Below are positions 19,051 to 64,000 of a DNA stretch of 64,000 nt, piece after piece. The notes beneath the pieces were generated by a model. It saw nothing but the letters and a program-made list of their open reading frames with translations. It was not told where the DNA came from and did no database searches. Made by a program: the position numbers and the translations under genes. This DNA comes from Halorussus limi. GTDB taxonomy: Archaea > Halobacteriota > Halobacteria > Halobacteriales > Haladaptataceae. Positions within the stretch are counted from its first letter, which is position 1, and each line of letters starts with the position of its first letter. The DNA lies in the NCBI RefSeq assembly GCF_023238205.1, contig NZ_CP096663.1, positions 62,001 through 126,000 of the forward strand. Direction: 5' to 3'.

Positions 19051-19090
19051 GATACTCACGAGGGACTCCGTGAACCGGTCTCTCGAAGAG

Positions 19091-19110
19091 GCCCTCACCA
19101 ATTGAGGGCA
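19091..19110 (-). promoter_or_regulatory. T-tract plus stem-loop element, copy 6 (tfb)
   Basis: Minus strand: GTTTATTC, then the 7-bp stem GCCCTCA / TGAGGGC with a 5-nt loop; the 3' arm runs a few nt below 19091. TTTATT is a reasonable haloarchaeal TATA box, so here the stem-loop would separate TATA and transcription start. Confidence 0.6.
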
Positions 19111-25555: not shown

Positions 25556-25714
25556 ACCACCTGCAAGTTGCTTTACTCATATGAAAATGATGGATATGAG
25601 CGTGACTTTCGACTGAACTGGTCAATCCACTTGTTGAATAGAGTGTAAGAAGCAGCTCGTATTTTACCAGTATTCGTAGATTAAGTCGAAAACAGCCAAT
25701 AGCGAACCACTCAG

Positions 25715-28024: not shown

Positions 28025-28032
28025 CTCCCGAA

Positions 28033-37999: not shown

Positions 38000-38093
38000 C
38001 CCTCCTTGTATAATTCTCTTGGAACATCACACACCCACTATCACGATAATGACAAAACAGTTCTCGACGAGCAGGCTGACGGTTACCCTGTCC

Positions 38094-38224
38094 AACGGGT
38101 GCAACCCGTTCTATATTAGTTGGTCTTTGGCCGGGTATTTGCATGGACAGCGCCCCCGTCATGCGATTTTTCGTGGACAGTCGTGTCCATGCAACATCCT
38201 TGGCCGTCCAGTCTGCATGGACAG
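38094..38224. repeat. Iterons and inverted repeat upstream of primase gene
   Basis: GCATGGACAG occurs at 38141-38150 and 38215-38224; CGTGGACAG at 38172-38180; the inverse TGTCCATGC at 38184-38192. A 7-bp inverted repeat AACGGGT / ACCCGTT with a 3-nt loop lies at 38094-38110. The 348-bp gap 38000-38347 has no gene. It may be an origin or an operator for the primase-polymerase, which starts at 37999. Confidence 0.55.
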
Positions 38225-38347
38225 GGAGCGTAAAAGGCCGAGTCTGCTCGCTTTGAGGCTTGTATTGCAGTATTTCGTCGGCTAGCTTCTGTCGAATGAG
38301 GGAGGTGGCTAAGCCACCCGCTGGTTGTATCATGTATTTGGTTGATT

Positions 38348-41300: not shown

Positions 41301-41371
41301 TTCTCGGATTCAGAGGTAGCGTCGGACGACTCCGAGGAGTCGTCACTGCCGAAGATTCGATCAAACACCAT
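38348..41371 (-). CDS. VirD4-like conjugative coupling ATPase with C-terminal extensions
   Basis: 1007 aa from ATG 41371. After an acidic, disordered first 60 residues comes a FtsK/HerA-type ATPase: Walker A GVTGYGKST (about residue 124), DPKGRD, Walker B YFVLVDEFDEIAS (about 370), and the arginine region SQYPSQFEEETLEA. Residues about 630-720 have a PD ... ExE arrangement (QPDAVATHP, FNIEAETTTP ... VKVLQNLKRA), which resembles PD-(D/E)XK nuclease folds. The last 70 residues (DLFQAYSNWTDQH ... GWFTRKLRN) resemble the winged helix at the end of phage primases. Start overlaps the upstream gene by 11 nt. Pumps or delivers DNA in conjugation. Confidence 0.83.
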   Translation of the reverse strand: MVFDRIFGSDDSSESSDATSESEKPEADDTEADSTPDAQSLLGEPYDISEEDTTYVGGKAVSTATAEEGLVAGPYVREMIEASAEGAFDQLWIGYDEDVQRGFREAPLRFDSLFRHIWIQGVTGYGKSTEMNNISVQLAYAGHGFVYFDPKGRDSRELLRKLPAHRLDDVIWIEPGSSKHDKTVGLNFLEVPECETPEEYENEIESRIENLKAIFDTDEYWGINMESITESMGRAMMQSEKPFSVIDLYFTLLNAERREEFAANVEDPYVREFCIEIAKMEDETVRPILKRIKSWVENSVIRRIIAHRESTIDFRNIIDNDRIVIVRTPVENTDIKKMITLGVMRNLWSAIQRRSYELDRDPSPYFVLVDEFDEIASDNLDIESMLARARSMRLSVTLASQYPSQFEEETLEAVQNNCDNLIAFSVNSVDDARLLMKRFRDYTAEDLISTDQYKAWTKLPLSGGRYSEPVLLNSFAPYPPLRSPEAVDDIIEESLERYGTDPLTDAEIMQNLIYSDSNEAANPTRILDKTMAEAIRAVQIRAGVRTENGWVDVTVVDDELAVRLDNQDADIEYAPEDLPDVRDASGLMEVELQDDDIVVRLTEDGETMVEPETGSVRSAGGETHDAVLVDTEEALTERGFSVEVVEQDGSEQPDAVATHPDHDAVFNIEAETTTPDRPVKVLQNLKRAHEADRIPIFVVRPGDSETKWASRVENILSPPLRERADGTEQFYNCDEVVTFGGGATAHGGVTAVRPRTSDTNRTVWTRDGDERVLSDGETEFAHMSDEGTLSKDMVPAYYSHDRETGQYTVHKPGATQTYDSKDEFEAEWTPIKRPFIPSDELPEAEIPRDSYVVLILPADGNPTVFQQGETYALSENPDELWPDTSTEDSEQSENSAQSEETSSPEDIDSQPPAESVEIDPSEDGVEAFTAMYVRQVDEARVPQDDLFQAYSNWTDQHDIDGTNKGWFTRKLRNVIEFDTDRSRVDGERVQFYVGITLTQEAETLLGQ

Positions 41372-42491
41372 GATTTCCTCTGTTGGAACTGAGGTCGTCG
41401 TCTTCGGCGCTCGTTGCTTGGCGGTCGTGTTGCCCTGCGTCGGCGGGAACCCGGTCGCCACGCTGGGTGTGTCGCCAATCGATGTTCGGCGTCTCGATAT
41501 CGCCACTCGGGATATGGGCGACACCAGCGAGTTCATCAATAGTCAGAATCATCCGCTGGTCACTCCAGTCACGCCCAACCATCTGCTCGACATGCTGGTG
41601 GAGATTGGTCGCTCGTTTTGCTTCTTTGCGATGCCAGATTGGCGTATCCTCAAAGCTTTGCTCGGTGACGCCCCAGTAGAGTTTCTTGAACATCCCCGCG
41701 ACCCCACGGGCACGCGCCTCAGCCTCACTTTGCTCCGCAGAGACAGCGAGAATTCGGATGTTAGCATGGAATGCCTGTTTGCCGCGCTGTTGTGCGACAG
41801 TTTTGGCGATCTGCTTGTCCGTCTCGTTGGCTGGACGAGTTCGTGGATTGAGCCAGCCAACTGAGGTCCCATTTCGATGGGCTTCGGCGAGTTCCTCGAC
41901 GCTGTTGTGTTTGAATCGGTCGCCGTCAGTCCACGACTGCTTCGCTGGCCGGAAGACGACTTGCACGACGACTTTGCTGTCGTCGAGCGAAAGCATCTCG
42001 CTCGTAATCTCGCCATAGGGGTCCGTCTCGAACTCCTCGCTGTTGTGGTGGCGAATCGGATAGTAGGGAATCTTCTTCAGCCCCAGTCGGGCACCAGCGA
42101 TGTACTCGTCGGACTTAATCACGGGAAACGTGACGCCGTCTTCGACGCGAAAGACCTCGCTGTTGGCATAGTTGTTACCGACGCGACGACGGAACTTGTC
42201 GGCGGCTGCCTCGGTCGCGGCGTGCACGTAGAACTTGATTTTGCCTTCGTCAAACCACAGCTCGAACGAGTGGTGGTCGCTCGTGTTCTTCCCCCGGAAG
42301 TTCGTAGTCATGTCGTGGACTGACCGGAGGAGACCGGTCGCGCCGAGGATGTCCTCGTTTTCTTTGAATGGTCGAATACGGAGCAGGCTACCGGATGTGT
42401 CCTCGGCCTGCTGGACGAACGCTTCGTCAAGGGGGAGTTGGGTCGCGCTGTACTGCGGTGAACCGCCGATGATGCGGGTGAATTTAGACAT
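41361..42491 (-). CDS. Conjugation-module protein, partner of VirD4-like ATPase
   Basis: 376 aa from ATG 42491. It has no ATPase motif. It contains a long alpha/beta region (LLRIRPFKENEDILGATGLLRSVHDM ... KFYVHAATEAAADKFRRRVGNNYAN) that resembles the N-terminal domain of HerA/TraC-type ATPases, and a later FHANIRILAVS strand-helix. It overlaps VirB4 upstream by 8 nt and the VirD4-like gene downstream by 11 nt, a tightly coupled arrangement that suggests a complex. I recall it as a DUF8128-type haloarchaeal protein; exact role unknown. Confidence 0.73.
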   Translation of the reverse strand: MSKFTRIIGGSPQYSATQLPLDEAFVQQAEDTSGSLLRIRPFKENEDILGATGLLRSVHDMTTNFRGKNTSDHHSFELWFDEGKIKFYVHAATEAAADKFRRRVGNNYANSEVFRVEDGVTFPVIKSDEYIAGARLGLKKIPYYPIRHHNSEEFETDPYGEITSEMLSLDDSKVVVQVVFRPAKQSWTDGDRFKHNSVEELAEAHRNGTSVGWLNPRTRPANETDKQIAKTVAQQRGKQAFHANIRILAVSAEQSEAEARARGVAGMFKKLYWGVTEQSFEDTPIWHRKEAKRATNLHQHVEQMVGRDWSDQRMILTIDELAGVAHIPSGDIETPNIDWRHTQRGDRVPADAGQHDRQATSAEDDDLSSNRGNHGV

Positions 42492-45400
42492 TGTTAGTGT
42501 TCTCCGTGGAGGTCTCTGCTGGGTCCTGTTCTGTCGGTATCCCACTCCCGTCCGCACGAGCAGTCGAATCGGCTACGCCATTATTGAGTGATGCAGTGAG
42601 AACGGCGTCGATAACTTCTTGCTGTGAAAATCCGTCTTCGAGAATCCGTCTCGCGTCTTGCTCACGGACGCCGAAGCGATTGGTGAGCGCGTTCCGCCGG
42701 GCTTCATTCTCAACGAACTCCTCAAACGCTACGAACTCCTCGGGGTCGGCGGAGATCGCCTGCTGGATAAACTCGCGGTCGTCGGGTTCGTAGTCGATGA
42801 CGCGCTTTTCGAACTCGTCAGCAACGATGTGGAGCGGATATGTACCGTGTTCTTCGACGTGGACGAGCGCCTGACTGTACCCGAGGTCGTCCTTACCAGC
42901 GTCGGCATTCCGGACGTACTTGCGTTGCTCACGAGTCAAACCGATCTTCTCAGCTATTTCATCGTCCAACTCCGGCAGTTTATGGAAGACCTTGATCGGA
43001 CACATCCCGAGAATTTTCTCGGCTTGCTCAGCCTCGTAGAACTCTTGGATCGTCTGTGACAGTAAGACCATCCGGAGGCCAGCGTGGCGCTGATGGCGGA
43101 ACGCTGTTTCGAGGAAATCGAGATTCGCCTGATCCTCGAAGAGGTAGTGAGCCTCGTCGATAGCGAGTTCGACGTTCTGGTCGGTCTTTTTCGCCTGCTG
43201 GTAGACCGTCGTGAGGAGTAATTGCATCAGGAACGTCTGGCGGTTGATACCCGACGCCGTCCCCTCGATTTGGCCGAGGTCGATGTAGACCACTTTATTG
43301 TCACCTTCGAGAATGTCGACCTCTGAGCGGTGTGAGAGATTCTCGTATGCTCCGCCCTCTTGGAATGGTTGGAGTGCAATCGCAAGTTCGTCGGCGTACT
43401 GAGCGGCGCGCTCGCGGGCAGACTCAGAGGTGGCGATGTTGTGTTCGTCGGGGTTCGCCGCGATGTCTGCGAGAATCCGGTGGACGTCCGTCATCGTCGG
43501 CGAGTTCTCGGGCGTGTGCGTCGAAACGTCACCCTCGACGACACCGGCTTGCCGGTAAGCCTCGTCGATGACGTACGAGAGGACGCCCGTTTCAGTCCCG
43601 AGGTCGATATCGCGAGCGGTCAAGAAGTTCTCAAGCACGGCGTACACCTCGTCCTTCTTCGCAGACAATGGCGAGATGCCGTCGGCAGATTCGAGGACCT
43701 CCTGTGGCGTCTCTCGAATCTCCAGCGGATTCAGTCGTGTGTCGCCACCCACCGTAATCGTCTTCGCGTTGAGCGCGTCGGCGAGTCCCTTGAACCCACC
43801 AACGGGATCGATCATCACGAGCATCGTCTCTTGCTGGCGCTTCATCAGTCGCAGGTGGCGCATGATGTCGCCGAACGTTTTGCCAGCGCCGGGCATCCCA
43901 ACAACGAGTTCGCTGTGGCCAGTTTCGAGATCCCACGGGTTGATTTGGACGGGAGAGCCGTTGTGGCCGTGGTAGCCGTACTCGACGCCCTCGTCCATCA
44001 TCAGATAATTCGAGGAGAACGGGAACATCGCGCCGATGGCCTGATTGGTCATTGTGGACATCCGGTCGCATCCAAGTTCGTTCGCACCGAGCGGCGACAC
44101 CGTCGCAAGTCCCTTCTCCTGCCAGCGATTCGCCACCTTGAGCGTACAATTCGCGGGCGCATCCTTGACAATCGAGCGGAGGCGCTTCGTCTGATTGTCG
44201 AGTTCCTGCTTGCTCTCAGCAGACAAGCGGATGAAGACGCCACCCCGGTAGAACGACGCTTTGTTCGCGCGGACGAGCGAGCGCATGAACTTCCCGCGGT
44301 CGATATCCTCCTGTAAGTCCTCGGCTTTGAGGCTGTTCGCATCGTACTGGTTGACCTTCAAGTCCGAAATCCAGTCGGCCATCATGTCCTCGGCCGATTG
44401 CGTGTCGAACGGGTCGAGGTGAATACTGACGTCTGTCTGGAGGTCCGTCTCCAACAGGAGACGCTCAAACATCCCATTGGCAGGCTTCTCGGGAAATTGC
44501 TCAATCCAGAACGTTCGGACGTACGTCTCGTCGTTGAGAACCGCATAGGTCGTCTCCCAGTCAACAGCCGACGGCGCGATGACCGACTGATGCATCGTTG
44601 AGGTATCATCGAGACGGTCGTCAGAGGCAATGTTCGTCTCGGTGTCCGATTCGGTAGCGTCGATGTCCTTGCGGTCGTCCATTGCATCGATGACGCTGTC
44701 CGGTGAGGGATTCGACGGCACGTTGTCGCTGAGACCGTGTGCGACAACCGGGAACGTCCCGATGGCGTTAGCGATATCGTCGTACTCCTCGGTATGGCCC
44801 GTCCAGTATTCTTTCGTCACGCGAGCAAGGTCGTAGGCGTCGACCGGACTCACCGAACAGCGGTAGAGCGACGACCCACCCCGACGAATCTGGCCGAGAC
44901 GCGATTCCAACTGGTCTTCTTTCAGGCGGTCGCGTTCGGCCTCGGAGAGACCGTCAGACTGGACCCCGCCGAATACACGTCCCAGAATAGGGACATCAGC
45001 GAGGTAGGCAAGGACGCTATCGCCGGTCTCGTCGAGTTGTTCGACGTCGGCATCACGGACGGCCGTGATGATGTAGTACTCGCGGATGGTCGTGCTCTCG
45101 GAGTCGATATCGCCGTTCTGGTTGGTGTTGGTGGTGATGTACTCCTCAAGCAGTCGTTTGAGGACCGGCCGAGAACGAACGTCGGCGTCACCGAGACGCT
45201 GCTGGTGTTCGCGGACGGCATCGTCTTGGTCGATCTCTCTGCTCGTGATGTAGAACTTCACGGGGAAGTCGAGAGACGCGTTGACGAACTCGGAGAGGGA
45301 CTCAACGGCTTTCGCCCAGGCCTCGTCGTCTTCAAGCGCCATGTTCGCTGGTTCGACTTTCATCGCGCCGACGAGCGCGCCGTCCGACCGCTCGATAGCG

Positions 45401-45762
45401 TGCGGGAAGACTTGACCGACGCGGGTCAAGTAGCGGACGTCGCTGTTGTCTTCGCCGTGGGTGTACTCTTTGTTCTTGACTGCCCAGCCAAGGCGTGCGG
45501 CCAGCCATTCGGTCAGCCAGAGGTGGGAAGGCTTTACCTTGTGGAGTAACCCGAGGAGAAGACTGAGGGTGATACCAAGTCCGAGGAGTGGTATAGTGAG
45601 GGTGGCTGGGACGAGTGCTGCGCCGATGAGCGTGATGAATGCCACGCCGATAAACAGCATGAGTTCGCCGATGGTGTAGCCACGGAAGAACGCGGTCGTC
45701 CCGCCGAGCGACTGATGGATTCGTCGTGCACTATACTCGTAGTCGTCAGTTTTGGTACTCAT
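42484..45762 (-). CDS. virB4: VirB4-like conjugation ATPase
   Basis: 1092 aa. Two N-terminal transmembrane segments (residues about 33-72) look like a fused VirB3-type piece. The central region contains the VirB4 N-domain. The motor has Walker A GMPGAGKTFGD (about residue 624) and Walker B LAIDEAHYLF (about 867), followed by LRMVLLSQT and EKILGMCPIKVFHKLP, typical of VirB4/TraC. It powers assembly of the pilus and substrate transfer at the membrane. The gene lies 6 nt after the VirB6-like gene in the operon. Confidence 0.9.
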   Translation of the reverse strand: MSTKTDDYEYSARRIHQSLGGTTAFFRGYTIGELMLFIGVAFITLIGAALVPATLTIPLLGLGITLSLLLGLLHKVKPSHLWLTEWLAARLGWAVKNKEYTHGEDNSDVRYLTRVGQVFPHAIERSDGALVGAMKVEPANMALEDDEAWAKAVESLSEFVNASLDFPVKFYITSREIDQDDAVREHQQRLGDADVRSRPVLKRLLEEYITTNTNQNGDIDSESTTIREYYIITAVRDADVEQLDETGDSVLAYLADVPILGRVFGGVQSDGLSEAERDRLKEDQLESRLGQIRRGGSSLYRCSVSPVDAYDLARVTKEYWTGHTEEYDDIANAIGTFPVVAHGLSDNVPSNPSPDSVIDAMDDRKDIDATESDTETNIASDDRLDDTSTMHQSVIAPSAVDWETTYAVLNDETYVRTFWIEQFPEKPANGMFERLLLETDLQTDVSIHLDPFDTQSAEDMMADWISDLKVNQYDANSLKAEDLQEDIDRGKFMRSLVRANKASFYRGGVFIRLSAESKQELDNQTKRLRSIVKDAPANCTLKVANRWQEKGLATVSPLGANELGCDRMSTMTNQAIGAMFPFSSNYLMMDEGVEYGYHGHNGSPVQINPWDLETGHSELVVGMPGAGKTFGDIMRHLRLMKRQQETMLVMIDPVGGFKGLADALNAKTITVGGDTRLNPLEIRETPQEVLESADGISPLSAKKDEVYAVLENFLTARDIDLGTETGVLSYVIDEAYRQAGVVEGDVSTHTPENSPTMTDVHRILADIAANPDEHNIATSESARERAAQYADELAIALQPFQEGGAYENLSHRSEVDILEGDNKVVYIDLGQIEGTASGINRQTFLMQLLLTTVYQQAKKTDQNVELAIDEAHYLFEDQANLDFLETAFRHQRHAGLRMVLLSQTIQEFYEAEQAEKILGMCPIKVFHKLPELDDEIAEKIGLTREQRKYVRNADAGKDDLGYSQALVHVEEHGTYPLHIVADEFEKRVIDYEPDDREFIQQAISADPEEFVAFEEFVENEARRNALTNRFGVREQDARRILEDGFSQQEVIDAVLTASLNNGVADSTARADGSGIPTEQDPAETSTENTNNV

Positions 45763-52755: not shown

Positions 52756-54831
52756 GTGTCTGAGTCACATTCGTTTGACGGGACTCTCGTCACGGTTCCG
52801 TTCGCCACCGGGGCGTTGCGCGACGTGCTCACTCAACAGTACTGCCGGTTACTCAATTCGCACGACTCCGAGGAGATTCTGGTGATTACCGGAACACCCA
52901 CGAGCATGCGGACGTTCCGAACGTTTCTCGACGGGGAGGTTCTGGACGCTGGCGTTCCGCGGGTGACTTCGCTCGTCGTGCAGGCGACGGACGTGGTGAA
53001 CCAGACCGACGACAGGACCGTCCTCTCGGACGACATGCAGCGCGAACTCGTTCATCGGTTTCTCGAAGGGTACGAGTGGGAGACCGACTACTTCCGGCGT
53101 GCCTCGGGAAATCCCTCGTTCGAAGACGATGTGGCGCAGTTGATGGAAACCGCCACGTGGCAGGACGCGCCGCTCAACGAGACGCCGGAACTCGCGGACG
53201 TCGCCGACGCAATCGACGACTTCCACGCGTGGCTCGCCGACCATGACTACCTCGAACGTGGCCAACTTATCTCGGAAGCAACCACGGCGCTCCAGGAAGC
53301 CGACGACCCCGACCCAATCGTCGATGCCGAAGCAGTGCTGGCCGTTGAGTTCGAAGAATTTCTACCACCTGACCGCGAGTATCTCTCGACGCTAGCGGCT
53401 GACCGCGAACTCGTCTGCATCGCAGAGACTGGTGGAAGCGTCCGGCGGACGTGGGTCGAATCCGGCCCCGTCACCGACCACGTCTCGTTCGCGGAGCGAC
53501 GAGACGAAGACGAGCGTCCGCCCGCGACCCGACCGATGGCGACGGCGGCGTACCTTGCACGCGGAACGGTCGCTGAGGACCCCGAGGAGGGGACGGTGCG
53601 CGTCCTCTCGGCGGAGACTGTGGCCGACCAACTCGGAGCAGTAGCCGACGAAATCGAGGCACTTCGAGCGCAGGAAGGGTTGTCGTACGCCGACTTCGCC
53701 GTTGCGGTCAAACAGAGCGGCACTGCCGTGATGGAGACGGTTAGCGAACTCCAGCAGAAGGGGATTCCCACGTCGTCCGCGACCGTGACAGGCTTCGGAG
53801 ACGACCCGGCCGTCCGCGAGTTACTTCGAGTCGTGCGAGCCCTCGCGGACGACGACCCAGAACTCGCCGACGACCCCCTTCTGGACGAGTCGATACTTGA
53901 CGAACTTAAGGCAATGGACGGACTCGCGGAGTCGCTCCGGCGGTGGGCGACCGAGTCGAACCTGAAAGCCCGCATCGCCGCCGACGAGTCACCGCTCGAC
54001 GCCAGAACCCAGTTCAGCAACATAAAGAATTCTTTTGCAATTGCAGAGTCAGTCGAAAGTACGGACTACATTGCTTCGACGTGGGAGTCGTTCGCCGTAG
54101 TGCTCGAACGCGCTCACGAGTACGCCCCGAAGCGAAACCAGACTAGTTCCATCGACCGCGATGGCGGGGTCCGCGTGGACCATCTGCAGGCGCTCAAGAA
54201 CGGTTCGTTCCCGGTCGTGTTCTTGCTGAACGTGGTCGACGAGGAGTATCCCGGTAGTCCGTCGCTGACGCGACTGTTCCCGGACGAACGCGTCGCAGGA
54301 ATGGCCGACTACCCCGGCGTCACCGACGTGGACGAGAGCGACGTCACGGCGACGTTCGCCACCGATTCGACCGCGTCGGGTCGGCCGTTCCGGCAGTATC
54401 ACGCCGAACACGCGCGCCGCCGCCTCGCGGTCGGCGCGGCGACGGCGCGAGACCGGCTCTACTGCTGTCTCTACGAACACGAGGACACGGCGCTCGACGA
54501 GCGCGTCCAACCGTCGCGGTTCCTCGCGGACGCCTTCCGGCGACTTCCGTGGCTCACCGAGGCGAGCGAATCGGGCATCCACAGCGAGGGCACCGCCGAG
54601 GAGTATCTGCTCTCGCGCGCCGACCGGGCGCTCGCGGACGTTCGCCGAACTAACAGTCAGGGCGTGGCCGTCTCGCTCGACGCACTCGAATCGGAGTTCG
54701 CGGAGATAGACCGCCTCTTGGAGGGGAGCGGCAAGCGCGGTCAGGACCTCAGAGAAGCGCTCCGTGCGCGCATCGACTTTGCGGATGGACGAGTCCGGCG
54801 CGACGCCGACGGGAGGGTTCGGCATGACTGA
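52756..54831 (+). CDS. AddB-like inactive helicase protein
   Basis: 691 aa, GTG start. The fold of UvrD/AddB helicases is suggested by VRVLSAETVADQLGAVADEIEALRAQEGLSYADFAVAVK, DHLQALKNGSFPVVFLLNVVDEEYPG (motif V-like) and RRRLAVGAATARDRLYCCLY (motif VI-like). No Walker A is present at the N-terminus, so it should not hydrolyse ATP and would act as the passive or sequence-reading arm, as AddB does. It overlaps the nuclease gene by 8 nt. These three genes have markedly higher GC than the flanking ones. Confidence 0.75.
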   Translation: MSESHSFDGTLVTVPFATGALRDVLTQQYCRLLNSHDSEEILVITGTPTSMRTFRTFLDGEVLDAGVPRVTSLVVQATDVVNQTDDRTVLSDDMQRELVHRFLEGYEWETDYFRRASGNPSFEDDVAQLMETATWQDAPLNETPELADVADAIDDFHAWLADHDYLERGQLISEATTALQEADDPDPIVDAEAVLAVEFEEFLPPDREYLSTLAADRELVCIAETGGSVRRTWVESGPVTDHVSFAERRDEDERPPATRPMATAAYLARGTVAEDPEEGTVRVLSAETVADQLGAVADEIEALRAQEGLSYADFAVAVKQSGTAVMETVSELQQKGIPTSSATVTGFGDDPAVRELLRVVRALADDDPELADDPLLDESILDELKAMDGLAESLRRWATESNLKARIAADESPLDARTQFSNIKNSFAIAESVESTDYIASTWESFAVVLERAHEYAPKRNQTSSIDRDGGVRVDHLQALKNGSFPVVFLLNVVDEEYPGSPSLTRLFPDERVAGMADYPGVTDVDESDVTATFATDSTASGRPFRQYHAEHARRRLAVGAATARDRLYCCLYEHEDTALDERVQPSRFLADAFRRLPWLTEASESGIHSEGTAEEYLLSRADRALADVRRTNSQGVAVSLDALESEFAEIDRLLEGSGKRGQDLREALRARIDFADGRVRRDADGRVRHD

Positions 54832-55738
54832 GCCGACGTTCCTCTCGCCGTCGCGGCTGGCGACGTATGCCGACTGCCAGCGGAAGTACGACCACAAGTA
54901 CGACCAAGAGATTCAGACGCCTGACGAGACGCGACTCTACTTGAATCAGGGTCACGTCTACCACGAAACGATAGAGGCCGTCTGCGAGGCGACCGAACCG
55001 GGTGACGACCCTGAAATCATCCATCGGCGAGCGATGGAGGCCCTCCCCGAGAAGTGGGAGGAACACCTCGACGAAGACGAGTACGCCTCCCGAGCGCACC
55101 GAAAATTCCAGCGCGCCGAGAACCGCGCGGCCATCGACGCCTTCTTCGACCCTGAGGACGGCAACGGCATCGACCACGCCCGCCGGTCGATTGCGACCGA
55201 GAAGTGGGTCGAGTGCGTCCATGAAGGTCTCGGCCTCCACGGAAAGGTGGACAACGTCCTCTACGACGAGCGCGAGGACGAACTCCACCTTATCGACTAC
55301 AAGCGCACCGTCAGCGGCGTCCTCGGCCACTGGTCCGGCGACCGACTGCTGGACCACCTCGACGGCGAGGCCCACGAGGCAAAGCGCGTCAAGAACGCCT
55401 TCCAGACCGCCGCCTACACCGAGGGCATCAAGCAGTCGGACTGCTACGAGGAGGGTATGTCCGTCCGGTTCAGTTTCTACGGTCTGCTCCACAATCGGGA
55501 CTTCGAGGCAACTCCCGACGGGTATCGCGTCACCGTCAGTGGAAAGCCACGCGAGACCACGAAGGCCTACAAGGAGTACTACGACGCGATCTGGGCGCTC
55601 GCCGAGCGTGCCCACTGCGGCATCACCGACGCCAACTACGACCCCGCGCCCGCCTCACTGATTCGTGAGGAGGCGTGTCCCGACTGCGACTACCGAGCGA
55701 TGTGCCCCGAATATCTCACGGAGGAAGTGACGCGATGA
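54824..55738 (+). CDS. PD-(D/E)XK nuclease with Fe-S cysteines (AddB/Cas4-like)
   Basis: 304 aa from ATG 54824. A cysteine at 18 (ADCQRKY) and three near the end (CPDCDYRAMC, 285-294) are the usual ligands of a 4Fe-4S cluster. The nuclease core has GKVDNVLYD then LIDYKR (around residue 158), the D-ExK type with D in place of E. AddB and Cas4 have exactly this set on one chain. Start overlaps the upstream gene by 8 nt and the stop overlaps the next gene by ATGA. In this set the AddB helicase-like and nuclease parts are two proteins. Confidence 0.83.
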   Translation: MTEPTFLSPSRLATYADCQRKYDHKYDQEIQTPDETRLYLNQGHVYHETIEAVCEATEPGDDPEIIHRRAMEALPEKWEEHLDEDEYASRAHRKFQRAENRAAIDAFFDPEDGNGIDHARRSIATEKWVECVHEGLGLHGKVDNVLYDEREDELHLIDYKRTVSGVLGHWSGDRLLDHLDGEAHEAKRVKNAFQTAAYTEGIKQSDCYEEGMSVRFSFYGLLHNRDFEATPDGYRVTVSGKPRETTKAYKEYYDAIWALAERAHCGITDANYDPAPASLIREEACPDCDYRAMCPEYLTEEVTR

Positions 55739-58700
55739 CCGAGAAAAATGCAGCCACTCCCGACTGGCTCCCGACCCCGGAGGACGATTTCGACCCCAAG
55801 CCCCAGCAGGAGACCATCATCGAGTCCGAGGACTACCCGATGCGGGTCCTCGCTGGTGCGGGCACCGGCAAGACGTTCACGATGGTCCGAAAAATCGAGC
55901 ATCTCGTGGACGAGCAGGGCGTCTCGCCCGACCGCATCCTCGCGCTGACGTTCACCAACAACGCCGCCGACTCGATGCGCGAGAAACTCAACGCCAAACT
56001 CGGGGCCGCGGGCTACGACATCGACGCCTACACCTACCACTCCATCTGCAACGAACTGCTGACCGACTACGCCTACGAGGCCGGACTCGACCCCGACTTC
56101 GAGGTGGCAACCGACGCCGAGACCTACGCCATCTGTCTCGACGTGCTGGACGAAATCGAGTATCGGTCGGTCAAGCCCAACGTCTACGGCCCGGACTCCT
56201 ACGCGACCGGCGCGGCCTCGAAGTTGCGCTCGTTTATCGGGTCGATGAAGCGAAGCGGAATCTCACCCGAGGAAATTGATGACTATCTTGGGTCGGCCGA
56301 GCGGGTCTACGAACTCGCCGAGATTCCCGACCGCATCGAGGCCAGTGCGAGTAATCACCTCGGCGGCCGGTCAGTCTCGACGGTCCTCGACGGGATTCCC
56401 GACGTGTGCGAGGAAATTCGATCGATACGTGACAAACTCGGCGAGGAAGGTATCGAAGCCAGTGTCGCGGACTTGCTCGACCGACTGATGGACCTCTGTG
56501 ACGCCCTCGAAGCGGCGTTCGAGGCCCACGAGGCGGGCGAGCACTCGCTCCCCGACGCCGCTCACAAGCTCCCGAAGTACCTCCTCGGCGGCTACGCCAG
56601 CGGCGCGCCCTCGGGGATTCCCGACGACCTGGACCTCGAACTCACCGACGAACTCCGGACCTTCACCGACGAGTGCAAGACCGCGCTCGACCTGAACGCT
56701 GGCTACGCGGCCTACGAGCGCGAACTCGAAGCGCGCGACTTACTCGACTTCGACGGTCTCGTGGTCGAGGCCGAGCGCCTGCTGAACTCGTCGGTCGGCG
56801 AGGAAATCGCCGACCGCTGGGACTACGTCTTCTGCGACGAGTTCCAGGACACCGACCGCCTTCAGTTCGACCTCGTGACCTCGCTGGTCTCCGAGGACCG
56901 CCTCTTCGTGGTCGGCGACGACGACCAAGCCATCTACGAGTGGCGCGGCGCGCACGTCGCCAACATCACCGACGAACTCGACGCGGAGTTCGGCGACGAC
57001 CTCGCCGACGAACCCCTCGAACAGAACTTCCGGTCCCACCAGCCGATTCTGGACCTCGCAAACGAGGCGCTCGAACGACTGGACGAACGCGAGAGCGAGA
57101 AGACACTCACTCGGGTCGAAGAACCGGACTACGACGGAACCTTCGTCGCCACCGTCGAAGAGGCCGACGACGAGGACGAGCGCGTCGGGCAACTCGTGAC
57201 CGTCGTCCGGAACCTCCTCAGCGGGGAGGCCGCCGACCTCGACCGAGCCTACGACCCGGGCGAAATCGCCCTGTTCGTCCGGAAGAACGACCACGCGACG
57301 CCGATTTTGGAAGCGTTCGACCGCGCGGGGATTCCCTACCAAGTCGCGGGCGACCTCGCGTCGGAGTCGGTCGGCGTCGGCACGGTCGTCGCGTACCTGA
57401 AGGCGCTGGCCCGTCCCGACGACGAAGTGAGTTGGAACCGCGTGCTGACGATGCGCTACCGCCTCGCCGACGCCGACCTCCGGCGTCTGAACGACCACGA
57501 CGACGGCGTGTTGGCCGGTCTCCGCGAGATTCCCCTCGACGCCTTCGAGGAACCGGACCGCGTCCGCGAGGCCCGAACTCACGCCGCCGAACTCCTCGAA
57601 CTTCGCGAGACAGCCTCGCTCGCCCACCTCTACCGGGAACTCAAAGACCTCACGAACGTCGAGTGGTACCTCAGCGAGCAGGAGCGCCGTGACCTCACGC
57701 AGGTTGAGGAAGTCATCGAGCAGTACGGCGACGGCGCGGTGCAACCGCCACTCACGCCGGAGTTCATCGATTCGCTCGAACACTACGACTCCCTGCTGGA
57801 CGAGAGCGGGTCGTCGCCGACCAGCCAACCGGACCTCGCCGACGCCGCGGTCAACGTCATGACCGTCCATAAGAGCAAGGGCTTGGACTTCCCGGTTGTG
57901 CTGATGCCCCGACTCACCGCCGACGAGTGGGAACCCGACTCCCGCACCTACGACACCCTCGAAACCGCGCTCTCGGGCGACCCCGACTCGGCCTTCCGCG
58001 AGGACCTCGTCGCCCGCGACGCCAGAGAGACGCGCCGGGTGCTCCACGTCGGCGTCACCCGCGCCGAGGAACTGCTCGTGCTTCAGGGACGCGCGCCGGA
58101 AGGCGAATCGGACAACGAGCGCGAAGTCCACGAGGCGGTCGCGGAGATTCTTCCCGAGACCGCTCCGTGGCGACCCGGAAGTGGCCACCTCCCCATCTGG
58201 TCGGACCTACAGGAGTCGCTCCCCGAGACGGCGACCGAGTGGACCGACTCGCTCGCATCGACTGTCGTCGGCGATGTCGGCGGTGAAGTCCGATACGACG
58301 GGGATGTACTCTCGGCGACTGAAGGCCGTGAGAAGGTTCTCGCGATCGCTGGCGATTCCGTGGCCGGTGAGCTTGATAGAACAGACCGAGCGGGGCTGTT
58401 CGAAGTCGAGACCATCGGTGGGGTATCGAAAGCAGACCCTCCGATTCGACACAGCTACACGTCGCTCGAACGCTACGAGCAGTGTCCGCGACAACACTAT
58501 CTCGACTTCGTGGTCGATGCTTTCCCGGATTACTGGTCCGGGAGTCCAGCAGGTGATGAGACCGGCGGCGTTTCGCAACACGAAGTCGGCTTGCTCTTCC
58601 ACGACGTCGCCGAGATGGCGAACAGACGGGGAGTGACGACGCCCGACGTGTGGTACGAACTCTGCGACCGGCTCGCGGGACAGCGACACTCGAAGGACAC

Positions 58701-59166
58701 GGTCGATGCAGTTCGGGCGTGTATCGACCGCTATTTTGAACTCGAAGTGAGCGAGTGGGAACTGCTCGACGCAGAGCGCGAGTTCGAGTTGACTCTCGAC
58801 GGCCACGAACTCGTAGGATTTGTGGACGCGGTCTATCGGAATCCCGAGGATGAGCTAGTCGTCGTCGACTACAAGGCGACTGAACGACACCGCGACATCG
58901 AGAACGATAGGCAACTACCGCTGTACCTGCTCGCGTGCCGCGACCTCTACGACGAACCCGTCTCCAAAGCCGGGTACGCATACGTCGGTGCAGTCGGGCC
59001 GAAACTCGAGACCAGCACGTTCGGCGAAACAGAACTTGACACCGTACGCTCGGCGTTGACGGAGACGATGAACGATATCGAATCGACCGCATTCGACAAG
59101 TATCGAGCCGGGACTCACTGTCGATGGTGCCAGCATAACGGGCTTCCCTGCGCCGAACGCAAATAA
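55735..59166 (+). CDS. UvrD/AddA-like helicase-nuclease
   Basis: 1143 aa from ATG 55735, with GGAGG 10 nt upstream. SF1 helicase motifs: Walker A GAGTGKT (residues 41-47), LALTFTNNAA, motif II DEFQD (about 366), GDDDQAIYEWRGA, NFRS, MTVHKSKGLDFPVV and GVTRAEELLVL. The C-terminal 130 residues are a PD-(D/E)XK nuclease (VGFVDAVYRNPEDELVVVDYKAT) ending with a cysteine group (HCRWCQHNGLPC). This is the AddA layout. With the two genes before it, it forms a candidate double-strand-break resection or DNA-degradation complex. Confidence 0.88.
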   Translation: MTEKNAATPDWLPTPEDDFDPKPQQETIIESEDYPMRVLAGAGTGKTFTMVRKIEHLVDEQGVSPDRILALTFTNNAADSMREKLNAKLGAAGYDIDAYTYHSICNELLTDYAYEAGLDPDFEVATDAETYAICLDVLDEIEYRSVKPNVYGPDSYATGAASKLRSFIGSMKRSGISPEEIDDYLGSAERVYELAEIPDRIEASASNHLGGRSVSTVLDGIPDVCEEIRSIRDKLGEEGIEASVADLLDRLMDLCDALEAAFEAHEAGEHSLPDAAHKLPKYLLGGYASGAPSGIPDDLDLELTDELRTFTDECKTALDLNAGYAAYERELEARDLLDFDGLVVEAERLLNSSVGEEIADRWDYVFCDEFQDTDRLQFDLVTSLVSEDRLFVVGDDDQAIYEWRGAHVANITDELDAEFGDDLADEPLEQNFRSHQPILDLANEALERLDERESEKTLTRVEEPDYDGTFVATVEEADDEDERVGQLVTVVRNLLSGEAADLDRAYDPGEIALFVRKNDHATPILEAFDRAGIPYQVAGDLASESVGVGTVVAYLKALARPDDEVSWNRVLTMRYRLADADLRRLNDHDDGVLAGLREIPLDAFEEPDRVREARTHAAELLELRETASLAHLYRELKDLTNVEWYLSEQERRDLTQVEEVIEQYGDGAVQPPLTPEFIDSLEHYDSLLDESGSSPTSQPDLADAAVNVMTVHKSKGLDFPVVLMPRLTADEWEPDSRTYDTLETALSGDPDSAFREDLVARDARETRRVLHVGVTRAEELLVLQGRAPEGESDNEREVHEAVAEILPETAPWRPGSGHLPIWSDLQESLPETATEWTDSLASTVVGDVGGEVRYDGDVLSATEGREKVLAIAGDSVAGELDRTDRAGLFEVETIGGVSKADPPIRHSYTSLERYEQCPRQHYLDFVVDAFPDYWSGSPAGDETGGVSQHEVGLLFHDVAEMANRRGVTTPDVWYELCDRLAGQRHSKDTVDAVRACIDRYFELEVSEWELLDAEREFELTLDGHELVGFVDAVYRNPEDELVVVDYKATERHRDIENDRQLPLYLLACRDLYDEPVSKAGYAYVGAVGPKLETSTFGETELDTVRSALTETMNDIESTAFDKYRAGTHCRWCQHNGLPCAERK

Positions 59167-59500: not shown

Positions 59501-61417
59501 ATGACTACAAACGATAACACGACTGCACTCGATTCGGTACGAGAGAAACTTAACAACGAGATTCCGGATGAGCTCTCCATCTCGAGAGTCACGTACGAAG
59601 GCCCAGAACTCATCATCTATACTGATACGCCACGGAAGTTTGCTGAACAGGATGGGCTTGTCCGCCGGCTCGCAAGTACGGTACGCAAGCGAATTACCGT
59701 CCGACCCGCACCGGGAACACAGACGAGTCCGACCGACGCAGAACCACGAATCCGCAATCTCATTCCCGATAAAGCAGGGATCACGAACCTAGAATTCTAT
59801 CCCGAAACGGGGGAGGTGTTGATTGAGGCTGAAAAACCGGGACTCGTTATCGGAAGTCGGGCCAGTACACTCCGAGAGATAACCAAAGAAGTCGGTTGGA
59901 CGCCGGAAGTCCTCCGAACACCACCGATGGAATCGTCGACGGTCGACAACGTCCGGAACTTCCTCAAGCAAGAACGCGGTGAGCGGCGGCAATTTTTAGA
60001 GCAAGTCGGTGAGGAGATTCATCGTGAATCCGGTCAGGACCCAGAGTGGGTGCGTGTGACGACGCTCGGTTGTTGCCGCGAGGTTGGTCGAGCTAGTTTT
60101 ATACTGAGTACTCCAGAGTCACGCGTTCTCATCGATTGTGGCGATAAGCCAGGGGCCGAGGGTGAAGTACCGTACTTGCAACTTCCAGAAGCAAATCCAA
60201 TTGCGGATCTTGATGCTGTCGTGTTGACGCACGCCCATCTGGACCACAGTGCGCTTCTCCCACTCCTGTTCAAATATGGGTATGACGGCCCAGTATACAC
60301 GACAGAAGCGACACGGGACTTGATGGGTTTATTGCAACTCGATTATCTCGACGTCGCCGCGAAGGAGGGGCGTACACCGCCATACGAGAGCGAGATGGTT
60401 CGAGAAGAACTCAAACACACAATTACACTTGACTACGGAGACGTCACCGATATAGCACCGGGTATCAAACTGACGCTCCACAACGCAGGGCATATTCTCG
60501 GAAGTGCAGTTGCACATTTCCATATCGGAAGTGGATTCCACAATCTCGTTTTCTCAGGGGATATTCATCATACAGATACACGATTGTTCAATGGGGCATC
60601 GAACGATTTCCCGCGTGTCGAGACGCTCGTACTAGAGTCGACATACGGCCGACGAAACGACTATCAGACGGATCAAGAGGATAGCGAACGTCGTCTTATC
60701 GAACTGATTAACGAAACGTCTGAGAGAGACGGAACGGTCGTTATCCCAGCGTTCGCTGTCGGTCGGTCTCAGGAGCTCATGCTCGTCCTCGAGGAGGCGA
60801 TGCGCGAGGGGAAGATTCCGACGATGCCAGTCTACCTTGATGGGATGATTCGGGAGGCGACGGCAATCCATACCGCGTATCCTGAGTTCCTACGTGATGG
60901 ATTGCGCCAGCGGATTCTCCACGACAACGAGAATCCGTTTCTCGCAGATCAGTTCCAACAAGTCGATGGAGGCGACCAAATGCGTGAGGAGATAGCCGCC
61001 GGTGATCCATGTATCATCCTCTCAACCTCGGGGATGGTGACAGGTGGCCCAATCATATCGTGGCTCGAACTGCTCGGTGGAGATCCTGAAAACACCCTCC
61101 TCTTCGTGGGGTATCAAGCTCAAGGGACACTCGGGCGAAGAATCCAGCGCGGCGAACGCAAGATTCCGTTCAGTGACAGTCGCCGCGGAAAGGAGCTGAC
61201 GCTTCAGTTCCGCGTCGAGTCAGTAAGTGGATTCTCGGGACACGCAGATCGAAACGGACTCGAGGACTTCGTCCGGACGATGGAACCTCGTCCACACAAA
61301 ATACTCTGCGTTCACGGTGACGAATCAGCGACAGACCAGTTTTCCTCTGCACTGTATCAGAAATTCAATCTCCGAACATACGCCCCGAAGAACACAGAGA
61401 CGTTCCGACTCGGTTAG
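59501..61417 (+). CDS. aCPSF1/FttA-type beta-CASP ribonuclease (accessory copy)
   Basis: 638 aa, the normal length. Two KH domains occupy residues about 1-150 (VTYEGPELIIYTDTPRKFAEQ; GEVLIEAEKPGLVIGSRASTL). The metallo-beta-lactamase part has TLGCCREVGRASFIL, LTHAHLDHSALLP (HxHxDH) and NAGHILGSA, FSGDIHH. The beta-CASP part has ESTYG, VIPAFAVGRSQE, STSGMVTGGP and SGFSGHADRNGL ... CVHGDE. FttA ends transcription by cutting nascent RNA and is normally a single chromosomal gene. The motifs are intact, so this accessory copy could be active. Confidence 0.88.
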   Translation: MTTNDNTTALDSVREKLNNEIPDELSISRVTYEGPELIIYTDTPRKFAEQDGLVRRLASTVRKRITVRPAPGTQTSPTDAEPRIRNLIPDKAGITNLEFYPETGEVLIEAEKPGLVIGSRASTLREITKEVGWTPEVLRTPPMESSTVDNVRNFLKQERGERRQFLEQVGEEIHRESGQDPEWVRVTTLGCCREVGRASFILSTPESRVLIDCGDKPGAEGEVPYLQLPEANPIADLDAVVLTHAHLDHSALLPLLFKYGYDGPVYTTEATRDLMGLLQLDYLDVAAKEGRTPPYESEMVREELKHTITLDYGDVTDIAPGIKLTLHNAGHILGSAVAHFHIGSGFHNLVFSGDIHHTDTRLFNGASNDFPRVETLVLESTYGRRNDYQTDQEDSERRLIELINETSERDGTVVIPAFAVGRSQELMLVLEEAMREGKIPTMPVYLDGMIREATAIHTAYPEFLRDGLRQRILHDNENPFLADQFQQVDGGDQMREEIAAGDPCIILSTSGMVTGGPIISWLELLGGDPENTLLFVGYQAQGTLGRRIQRGERKIPFSDSRRGKELTLQFRVESVSGFSGHADRNGLEDFVRTMEPRPHKILCVHGDESATDQFSSALYQKFNLRTYAPKNTETFRLG

Positions 61418-61433
61418 CTGAATTGAGGCGCTA

Positions 61434-61480
61434 AGCCCCCTTCCTCAACGAGCGACCGAAGGGAGCGAGTAGGGAGGGGA
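61434..61480 (+). mobile_element. Relic right end of another IS605-type tnpB element
   Basis: The plus strand reads S-P-L-P-Q-R-A-T-E-G-S-E-stop (TAG 61470-61472), which parallels the last codons of the complete TnpB (S-P-T-L-T-E ... V-S-E-stop). It folds into a 9-bp stem with one wobble (61437-61445/61470-61478), like the end of the intact element (62904-62947). It lies 16 nt after the aCPSF1 stop. Confidence 0.5.
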
Positions 61481-61566
61481 TACAGCGCCGCACAGTTCTC
61501 ATACACGATTCGACACTCGGCCCACAGGCCCACGTAATCGCAACGCCTTTGCATATAGTGAATACA

Positions 61567-61695
61567 ATGCATATTGTGAAGCGGACTACAATCACACTCC
61601 GAGAGGACCAACACGAGTGGATTCAAGAACACCACCTGAACCTCTCGTCGTTCATCCGCGAGCGACTTGACGAGTATATCGAGGAACACGAATAG
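61567..61695 (+). CDS. Tiny ribbon-helix-helix protein next to tnpB
   Basis: 42 aa from ATG 61567 (GTG 61558 is also in frame). KRTTITLREDQHEWIQEHH followed by LSSFIRERLDEYIEEHE matches an RHH DNA-binding fold in its smallest form. It ends 3 nt before tnpB, so both are expressed together. It may regulate tnpB or the element, or be a captured antitoxin-like gene. Confidence 0.7.
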   Translation: MHIVKRTTITLREDQHEWIQEHHLNLSSFIRERLDEYIEEHE

Positions 61696-61698
61696 CGA

Positions 61699-62943
61699 AT
61701 GTACTACGCCTACAAGTACCGTCTCAAACCGTCCAACGTCCACCGAGAGGAGTTGGACCGCCACCGAGACATTTGTAGGCAACTATACAATCACGCCCTC
61801 TACCGCTTCAACCAAATCCCCGAAGACGCAGGCACACTTAATCAGCGTGTTCGGTCCATCCGAGACGAAATCCCGTCCCTGAAAGATTGGTGGGATGGAC
61901 TCTCGGACGTGTACTCGACAGTTCTGCAAACAGCGGTCATGCGAATTGAACAGAACGTCAAGTCGCTCGGAGGACTCAAGGAGAACGGCTACGGCGTCGG
62001 TCACCTCACGTGGAAACCGCCACGGGAGTTCCGCAGTTTCACCTACAGTCAGTCTGGCTTCAAGCTCAACAAGAAGGGCGGTCAGACTGTCCTGTCACTC
62101 TCAAAACTCGCGGACATCCCGCTTCGGCTCCACCGACCTATCCCCGACAACGCTACACTCAAACAGGTCACGGTCAAGAAAGAGCCGACGGGCGAGTGGT
62201 TCGCCACCTTCGGCGTCGAACTGGACCGTGAATCACCCGAACTACCCGAGAATCCCGAGCAGTGCGTCGGTATCGACGTGGGGATTCTCACGTACGCCCA
62301 CGACACCGACGGCACGGCGGTCGGGTCGCTCGACCTCTCGGACGAATGTGAACGCTTGGAACGCGAGCAACGGAAACTCTCGCGCAAACAGCACGGGTCG
62401 AAAAACTGGGAGAAGCAACGGCGAAAAGTCGCAGAGTGTCACGCCGACCTCCGACGCAAGCGCCGCGACTTCTTGCACAAGCTCTCTGCCTACTACGCTC
62501 GGGAGTACGACCTTGTGGCGGTCGAAGACCTGAACGTGACGGGGATGATGGAGTCACCGTCGAACAGCCGCAACACGGCGTCCGCCGCGTGGAGAACGTT
62601 CCTCTCGTTGCTCGAATACAAGTGCGAGCGCGAAGGGGCGTACTTCGTGGCGGTCAACCCGAGAGGGACGACCAAGGAGTGTGCATCCTGCGGTGTCTCG
62701 ACGCAGAAGCCACTGTGGGTTCGTGAACACTCCTGTCCTGCCTGCGGGTTCGAGGCGGACAGGGACGCGAACGCGGCGTGGAACATTCGTTCTCGCGGCC
62801 TCGAAGATGTAGGAGTGGGACACTCCGAAGCAACGCCTGTGGAGACTGCGCTCCCTGCGGATACACCTGTATCTGCAAAGCGTGTCGTGGAAACAGGAAG
62901 CCCCACCCTCACCGAGCGAACGGCGCAAGCCGTGAGCGAGTAG
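61699..62943 (+). CDS. tnpB: TnpB RNA-guided nuclease
   Basis: 414 aa. The RuvC residues are intact: D in GIDVGILTY, E in VEDLNVTG and D in DRDANAAWN. The zinc finger is CASCG ... CPACG. The N-terminal half is the helical RNA-binding region (MYYAYKYRLKPSNVHREEL). TnpB uses an RNA from the element's 3' end to cut the donor joint after excision, so the element is kept. The full set of catalytic residues suggests an active enzyme. Confidence 0.9.
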   Translation: MYYAYKYRLKPSNVHREELDRHRDICRQLYNHALYRFNQIPEDAGTLNQRVRSIRDEIPSLKDWWDGLSDVYSTVLQTAVMRIEQNVKSLGGLKENGYGVGHLTWKPPREFRSFTYSQSGFKLNKKGGQTVLSLSKLADIPLRLHRPIPDNATLKQVTVKKEPTGEWFATFGVELDRESPELPENPEQCVGIDVGILTYAHDTDGTAVGSLDLSDECERLEREQRKLSRKQHGSKNWEKQRRKVAECHADLRRKRRDFLHKLSAYYAREYDLVAVEDLNVTGMMESPSNSRNTASAAWRTFLSLLEYKCEREGAYFVAVNPRGTTKECASCGVSTQKPLWVREHSCPACGFEADRDANAAWNIRSRGLEDVGVGHSEATPVETALPADTPVSAKRVVETGSPTLTERTAQAVSE

Positions 62944-62947
62944 GGTG
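62904..62947 (+). ncRNA. Stem-loop at the tnpB 3' end, omega-RNA candidate
   Basis: CACCCT (62904-62909) pairs with AGGGTG (62942-62947), and inside is ACGGC / GCCGT closed by a GCAA tetraloop (62920-62933). It overlaps the last TnpB codons and its stop. TnpB guide RNAs are encoded at exactly this place; the guide would be the sequence following the element end. Confidence 0.55.
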
Positions 62948-63221
62948 AGGTAGTTCACTAGCACCGTATTCGCGTTACCGACGTACTGACTGAAGAATCG
63001 TCGACTACTGCGGCGAAATCTATTTATCGGCCACGACAAAAGTAGTAATTGTATCCCGGACTCCGTCCCGTCCTTTTTCCACTCGCCCATCGGTTCGCCA
63101 CCATAGGGGCGTCCTCCGATGGCACTGCTCTGAGATGCGCCGTGCCAGCGACGGTTCGTCCCCAGCGGTCGTTGGGTGTCCCTTGACGGGGCTGAGCAGT
63201 ACCCGGAGAGACACCGCACCT

Positions 63222-63434
63222 ATGACCAACGAAACAGATCTCCCCTGCACGGACTGTGGAACTGCCCTCAACGAACGAGTAGTCCACGTGCGGGACCTCT
63301 CAATATCCACGGAGTGGCGTGGTACCGTTCAAATTGCAGAGTGTCCACTATGTGGCGCGAGATATTATCCCGAACGCACGCTCGCAAAATTGAGGAGATC
63401 CTCACAGCGGACACTATCTCAAGAGGGAGGCTAG
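63222..63434 (+). CDS. Small zinc-ribbon protein
   Basis: 70 aa from ATG 63222. CTDCG and CPLCG form a typical four-cysteine zinc ribbon spaced by a beta-rich segment. The tail (YYPERTLAKLRRSSQR) is basic. The next gene starts 5 nt after its stop, so the two form an operon. Rubredoxin- or ribosome-type roles are excluded by size and sequence; it is more likely a regulator. Confidence 0.65.
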   Translation: MTNETDLPCTDCGTALNERVVHVRDLSISTEWRGTVQIAECPLCGARYYPERTLAKLRRSSQRTLSQEGG

Positions 63435-63439
63435 CAATT

Positions 63440-64000
63440 ATGGAGAACTCATCACAACAACCTACGGACGGAGTTGAGCTTACCATTAAGAATTTCCCCG
63501 AAGTTTTAGCGGACGGCACAACAGTTCTTGTAGCTGGGACAATCGATCCAACAGCATACGCTCTTTGTCTCCGAGCACTCTGCCATTATAGCAGGAGTGC
63601 TGATACATCAGTTGTCGTGACGGCAACCGAGAATGCATCTCAGACTATTAGCCGATACGAACGCGTATGTCCGACCTCAGACCCTTCGAAACTCCGTCTC
63701 GTCGATATGGCCTCCAAACAGTACATCTCGGCACCCTATGAGGATACCCCGACGATATCAATTCCGACACCGGACGACCTCGAACGCCTCGTTCTCGCGA
63801 TATCCGAGTTAGCCGAGATAAGCGGTTCGATAACTGGTCAGCGCCACATCGTTATTCGCTCACTCTCGCCGATTTTGGCATCGACTCCTGTTAAGCGTGT
63901 TTCGACAGTTCTCAGTCGCATCTCCGGAATCCGAACACCAGCTGGGCTCGGTCTTTTTGGTCTCGATTACACAGCACACGACGAAGAGACAATGAGAGAA
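63440..64000 (+). CDS. RecA/KaiC-like haloarchaeal protein (3' cut by window)
   Basis: The first 187 codons are in the window. The chain starts MENSSQQPTDGVELTIKNF and contains LVAGTIDPTAYALCLRALCHY, VVVTATENASQTISRYERV, and RHIVIRSLSPILASTPVKRVSTVLSRISG. These segments resemble the P-loop-less RecA/KaiC-like fold of a haloarchaeal family (DUF7504 in memory), where the Walker A is lost. Five nt separate it from the zinc-ribbon gene. The C-terminus is not visible. Confidence 0.6.
   Translation, partial: MENSSQQPTDGVELTIKNFPEVLADGTTVLVAGTIDPTAYALCLRALCHYSRSADTSVVVTATENASQTISRYERVCPTSDPSKLRLVDMASKQYISAPYEDTPTISIPTPDDLERLVLAISELAEISGSITGQRHIVIRSLSPILASTPVKRVSTVLSRISGIRTPAGLGLFGLDYTAHDEETMRE

Follow-up and report, generated by a model that had tools for sequence, protein, structure and literature searches.

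We analysed a 64,000-nucleotide stretch of Halorussus limi DNA (the window), which corresponds to C5:62001-126000 of the 150,469-base contig C5. This contig carries orc1/cdc6-like, parA-like and TraG/TraD-like genes. The features on which the analysis rests are the following (window coordinates).

18121 to 19101, minus strand: TFB gene, one of about 15 in the genome, outside the gene island described below.
59501 to 61417, plus strand: fttA2, an accessory FttA (aCPSF1) gene of KHa-KHb-MBL-beta-CASP-RMMBL architecture; 638 aa, ATG start.
61411 to 62958, plus strand: IS200/IS605-type insertion with a tnpB ORF at 61699-62943, which separates fttA2 from the leader RNA.
63014 to 63028, plus strand: promoter-like CGAAATCTATTTATC, about 35 nt ahead of the RNA and conserved in most of its copies.
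63061 to 63196, plus strand: structured leader RNA (model R1), 136 nt, with a long-range closing helix and internal hairpins.
63222 to 63434, plus strand: gene for a 70-aa CxxC/CxxC zinc-ribbon-like protein directly behind the leader RNA; weak DUF7479 match.
63440 to 64000, plus strand: gene for a DUF7504 protein, which extends past the end of the window to about C5:126102.

The fttA2 reading frame was unbroken over its 638 codons. The encoded protein (C5 protein) scored 929.6 bits against TIGR03675, the aCPSF1 equivalog model (cutoff 580.2), and exceeded the cutoffs of four Pfam families (KH_TffA, matched at residues 9-71, Lactamase_B, Beta-Casp and RMMBL). It aligned end to end with the solved FttA structures 2xr1, 2ycb, 9bct and 3af5, and both N-terminal KH domains were covered in the alignments to 9bct, 3af5 and 2xr1. 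All of the metal ligands (H244, H246, D248, H249, H331, D354 and H605) and the beta-CASP residues E379 and H581 are present; in the alignment, the tested metal and beta-CASP residues were invariant in 51 of 51 FttA2 rows and 20 of 20 FttA1 rows. The Pfam, TIGR03675, structure and residue comparisons all bear out the sequence-only reading, which had described the metal and beta-CASP motifs and both KH domains as intact. The dN/dS values between FttA2 pairs (0.03-0.08) were as low as those between FttA1 pairs and, on this measure, FttA2 is under strong purifying selection. As both KH domains and all of the tested residues are kept under this selection, FttA2 is very likely an active nuclease.

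Two more full-length FttA genes were found on the 3.58-Mb contig C1, at C1:2972381 (90% identical to the C5 copy) and at C1:2136676 (72% identical; row HL027 in the tree), as well as a 56-residue FttA fragment at C1:3066121. The copy at C1:2136676 grouped with the housekeeping FttAs of other genera, while the copy at C1:2972381 is of the FttA2 type. The host chromosome has its own fttA, and the earlier description of the C5 gene as an accessory copy stands; the condition that would have refuted it, a genome with no other fttA, does not hold given these two full-length copies. The C5 copy is intact and under purifying selection, as a housekeeping fttA would be, but that it is the housekeeping gene (the FttA1 orthologue) can practically be dismissed, because C1:2136676 holds an FttA1-type gene and the C5 copy lies within the FttA2 clade, which is absent from most genomes. 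The contamination estimate of the assembly was 4.55%; duplicated markers could cause this value, and a small residual chance that C5 is a contaminant contig has to be accepted. The accessory status of FttA2 does not depend on C5, since it also follows from the C1 copy and its sister genome (G374). Duplicates of aCPSF1 have been described in 56 of 366 haloarchaeal genomes (15.3%), with two or three copies each that are 60-100% similar (PMC8653824), and the C5/C1 set is such a case. The available text of that work handles the duplicates as a taxonomic nuisance and presents no clade, island, partner genes or RNA. Haloarchaeal FttA duplicates are known; the portion of the literature open to searching holds no description of their gene context.

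In a tree of 75 rows, FttA2 formed a separate clade (SH-aLRT 97-100) that contains the C5 and C1:2972381 copies and excludes the housekeeping copies. The C5 copy is 97.6% identical to its sister in the tree, which is carried by a Halorussus aquaticus plasmid; the mean identity between FttA2 and haloarchaeal FttA1 is about 69%. An FttA match at the strict limit was obtained in 390 of 391 Halobacteria genomes, about 74 of them with two or more. FttA2 is carried by two of the nine sampled genomes of Halorussus and is missing from most sampled genomes. A single clade of the FttA2 copies from one family (f4) was rejected (AU p 9e-6) and, together with the patchy distribution, this indicates that FttA2 moves between families, at least sometimes. 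FttA2 is also found in chromosomes, in many species and in C1 of this host. Neither phage records nor IMG/VR yielded a full-length FttA at the search sensitivity applied, and a viral origin of FttA2 was rejected on these grounds.

FttA1 and FttA2 are fixed for different residues at 19 positions. The beta-CASP domain, 125 residues long, contains 10 of these and the C-terminal part another 5; the KH domains are nearly alike. In the Tko protein, R238 and Y239 form a contact of FttA to the Spt5 KOW domain (PMC11616081). The matching C5 positions (232-233) are L-G in FttA1 and N/M-P in FttA2 (N-P in the C5 protein itself), and the Tko pair is kept in neither haloarchaeal clade. R562, the site compared with Tko R572 (among the stalk/Spt5 contacts), is kept in the C5 protein and in most rows. 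The changed contact loop at the Spt5 site and the fixed beta-CASP cluster suggest that coupling or substrate choice has shifted and that FttA2 is not simply redundant; from the former we infer altered coupling of FttA2 to Spt5. FttA2 shares with FttA/aCPSF1 the KH-KH-MBL-beta-CASP-RMMBL architecture, the tested metal and beta-CASP residues and a similar length, but differs as a separate paralogous clade with the 19 fixed substitutions and the N/M-P site, accessory and patchily distributed. The eukaryotic INTS11/CPSF73 proteins have the MBL-beta-CASP nuclease core but lack KH domains, and their similarity to FttA2 begins only at about residue 180. The type VII CRISPR nuclease Cas14 has the same core; this assignment was rejected, as the C5 protein scored 318 bits against NF045584 (cutoff 800) and no CRISPR context was seen.

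Next to fttA2, C5 carries an island of expression genes. Downstream lie the zinc-ribbon and DUF7504 genes, RNase Z, a 5S-23S-tRNA-16S operon and a gene for a 292-aa protein. The same stretch holds genes for a macro-domain protein, DUF5786, aIF1A, an MFS protein and a TFS-like factor, for one malate:quinone-oxidoreductase-like and one mandelate-racemase-family protein, and for RNase J, besides hisI and an initiator tRNA-Met. A second island, which has no rRNA, runs from C1:2972381 onward on the host chromosome. In this genome, island copies of RNase Z and aIF1A exist alongside housekeeping-type copies, and three RNase J loci were detected using the first 37 residues of RNase J as the query.

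We set the surroundings of 52 FttA2 genes against those of 20 housekeeping fttA genes, bearing in mind that the loci are phylogenetically non-independent and that 20 controls limit the power. PL017 and PL018 were left out of the island set (housekeeping type and very divergent), and HL157 was dropped from the controls and counts, being the own FttA2 of its genome (G298). The core set comprised eight genes (RNase J, RNase Z, aIF1A, TFS, RLI, DUF5786, DUF7504 and macro). At least one of them was present within 20 kb at 34 of the 52 FttA2 loci, whereas the 20 housekeeping neighbourhoods, which extended 10 kb to each side of the gene, contained none; three or more were present within 20 kb at 21 of the 52, and 18 of the 52 had none of the eight in the stretch examined. 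Within 10 kb of FttA2 we found DUF7504 (19/52), DUF5786 (18/52), the zinc ribbon (16/52), MFS (15/52) and RNase J (14/52), each absent from all 20 controls (Fisher p 0.0007-0.006, the loci being non-independent). Only these five and amphi-Trp were individually significant against the 20 controls. An initiator tRNA-Met of the A1-U72 type occurred at 13 island loci and in 0 of 20 controls. Gene order is scrambled among the loci, and island cores without FttA2 also occur (G265, G146, G256 and G325).

A crude scan for a shared operator upstream of the island genes gave no convincing candidate, but led to the leader RNA. This is a conserved stretch between fttA2 and the zinc-ribbon gene, preceded by the conserved promoter-like box CGAAAYCTATTTAT. 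Using a covariance model (with rough E-values), the RNA was detected in 14 of 391 genomes from 10 genera, and copies were seen ahead of zinc-ribbon and/or DUF7504 genes. The H. limi genome has two copies on C5 (the one in the window and C5:140550-140696) and two on C1 (C1:2974395 and C1:2993690). The C1 copy of fttA2 and the one on the H. aquaticus plasmid lack the insertion element, and there the RNA comes directly after fttA2. Among 18 distinct sequences, 93.9% of the cells were paired, compared to 35-47% with slid partners, 8 pairs were changed on both sides (3.4 in shuffles), and the covariation score was 0.178 against 0.137 (0 of 500 shuffles). The alignment had itself been made to fit the structure, and these figures are biased in favour of it. 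A search against 4227 Rfam families gave no match (best chance hit E 4.9). For haloarchaea, in which, to our knowledge, few structured leaders are catalogued, this RNA is a candidate for a natural structured regulator.

The rRNA operon of the C5 island, on the 150-kb replicon, is complete and divergent (C5:127970-133078; L019 1969-7078). Its 16S shares 92.8% and 95.5% identity with the two 16S genes of the chromosome and scores equally well against the Rfam model. The spacer tRNA is Ala-UGC in both chromosomal operons; its C5 counterpart carries the anticodon UUC and no longer has G3-U70, a pair typical of alanine tRNA. We considered the operon as a regular island member and rejected this, since only the C5 and H. 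aquaticus plasmid islands hold rRNA; it is a local addition to the island. Haloarcula likewise combines several 16S genes in one organism, at a divergence of about 5%, and the accessible text of the reports describes temperature-dependent expression of these divergent genes (PMC5368182, PMC6373231). The C5 operon differs from them in its setting, an island with FttA2 and RNase Z on a replicon of 150 kb, and in its spacer tRNA-Ala, which is now a UUC form.

Taken together, we consider it somewhat more probable than the opposite that FttA2 is an old second FttA paralogue with the role of a conditional isoform, and that the haloarchaeal island of spare expression genes to which it belongs rearranges and is partly mobile. 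In favour of this are the intact domains and residues, the separate clade, the low dN/dS, the recurrent partner genes, the divergent but equally well-scoring C5 16S, the patchy distribution and the difference at the Spt5-contact site. Weighing against it are the 18 FttA2 loci with no core gene, the island cores that lack FttA2, the weak significance of most single partners, the failure of the crude scan to show a shared operator, and the restriction of the rRNA operon to two islands. By analogy with FttA biochemistry, FttA2 would dock as a dimer on the host RNA polymerase via the stalk and Spt4/Spt5, cleave U-rich nascent RNA and release the polymerase; it would have to share the Spt5 of the host, because a second Spt5 is not encoded. 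FttA2, RNase J, RNase Z, aIF1A, the initiator tRNA, the TFS-like factor, RLI and the C5 rRNA operon would form a set of conditional isoforms, supplementing the housekeeping parts or taking their place in some stress or growth state. The Haloarcula 16S genes cited above, as far as the accessible text goes, may serve as a precedent for condition-dependent haloarchaeal paralogues. A bolder version, to which we give only a low probability, is that haloarchaea exchange a mobile expression kit (an alternative termination nuclease, 5'- and tRNA-processing nucleases, aIF1A, an initiator tRNA and sometimes rRNA, with a structured leader RNA of a new type controlling one operon) that would switch cells to a second mode of termination and translation initiation.

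FttA has been treated as the single general archaeal termination factor. An old and selected second FttA, accompanied by spare RNases, aIF1A, an initiator tRNA and at times rRNA, would mean that the core expression machinery of archaea is modular and exchangeable. Through its changes at the Spt5 contact and in the beta-CASP domain, FttA2 offers a natural way of testing FttA for separation of function, and the island provides a concrete gene set with which to ask why haloarchaea retain paralogous ribosomes and factors.

Two rivals to this reading have to be weighed, the main one being that the island holds variants escaping toxins or viral inhibitors, and the other plain redundancy. Under redundancy, housekeeping duplicates on large plasmids would be active and harmless, hitchhiking or adding dosage, with no separate role. 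Haloarchaea are rich in large replicons and duplicates (for FttA, the 15.3% of genomes reported in the part of PMC8653824 available), and the scrambled gene order fits as well. However, repeated recent duplications would not give one old clade, and strong selection, fixed clade-specific changes and the recurrence of the same unrelated genes near FttA2 in several families speak against a passive origin; we regard redundancy as unlikely. The escape explanation, which we rate as a little less likely still, is that the island supplies variants of parts (termination nuclease, RNases, aIF1A, initiator tRNA and rRNA) attacked by toxins, viral inhibitors or antimicrobials made by competitors, and that the host survives when its housekeeping copies are blocked. 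It would account for unrelated essential expression parts duplicated together, with catalytic sites kept and surfaces changed, for the variant initiator tRNA and rRNA, and for a patchy, plasmid-rich distribution; PIN/AbrB and UPF0175 toxin-antitoxin-like genes lie near one locus. Against it, FttA2 matches no known defence model, no inhibitor or toxin gene constantly travelling with the island was found, and metabolic genes (hisI, MFS and the mandelate-racemase family) are also island members.

The idea that the replicon brings its own start and stop factors, FttA2 and an extra TFB, and so reprograms host transcription fared much worse, and we consider it improbable. The TFB noted in the sequence-only reading is real and shares the 150-kb replicon with fttA2, but it is just one of the many TFB-like genes in this genome and lies 40 kb from fttA2, on the same side of it as the restriction and conjugation genes. 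TFB is near only 4 of 54 FttA2 loci, the recurrent partners of FttA2 being RNA-processing and translation genes. Spt5 stimulates FttA, and its gene is single and chromosomal in this genome; moreover, chromosomes also carry FttA2. We also considered a set of paralogues for zinc limitation, since FttA, RNase J, RNase Z, HisI and TFS bind zinc. This was dropped because FttA2 and the TFS-like factor keep their metal residues and cysteines, and because aIF1A, tRNA, rRNA and Cdc48 do not fit.

Several minor observations concern single island genes. The TFS-like factor (L019 15584-15901) scored 41.6 bits against TFS_arch (cutoff 64.75). It may lack the acidic cleavage tip and, by analogy with crenarchaeal TFS4, which acts as an inhibitor, could possibly be one too. 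Extra initiator tRNA-Met genes of the A1-U72 type are located at L020 1719-1795, L185 11328-11402, L012 14036-14112 and elsewhere, and in some of them an A-U pair interrupts the run of three G-C pairs that is usual for the anticodon stem. A further aIF1A copy on another replicon (G000:C3:80563-80877) has a TAA inside the match and is possibly a pseudogene of an island member.

Elsewhere in the window, the region directly upstream of fttA2 (52756-59166) holds a three-gene helicase-nuclease cluster, composed of a 691-aa protein without family, a Cas4-like PDDEXK nuclease and a UvrD helicase-PDDEXK fusion, which scores as AddAB-like or Gabija-GajB-like. These genes were rejected as partners of fttA2, not being conserved beside other FttA2 copies. 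Two Eco57I-type methylase genes and an HKD/PLD-Snf2 helicase at 21932-31839 form a restriction or DISARM-like defence cluster. A protein with an NrS-1-type primase-polymerase domain and two TraG/TraD-like conjugation ATPases are encoded at 36719-45762, which suggests that the C5 replicon is transferable.
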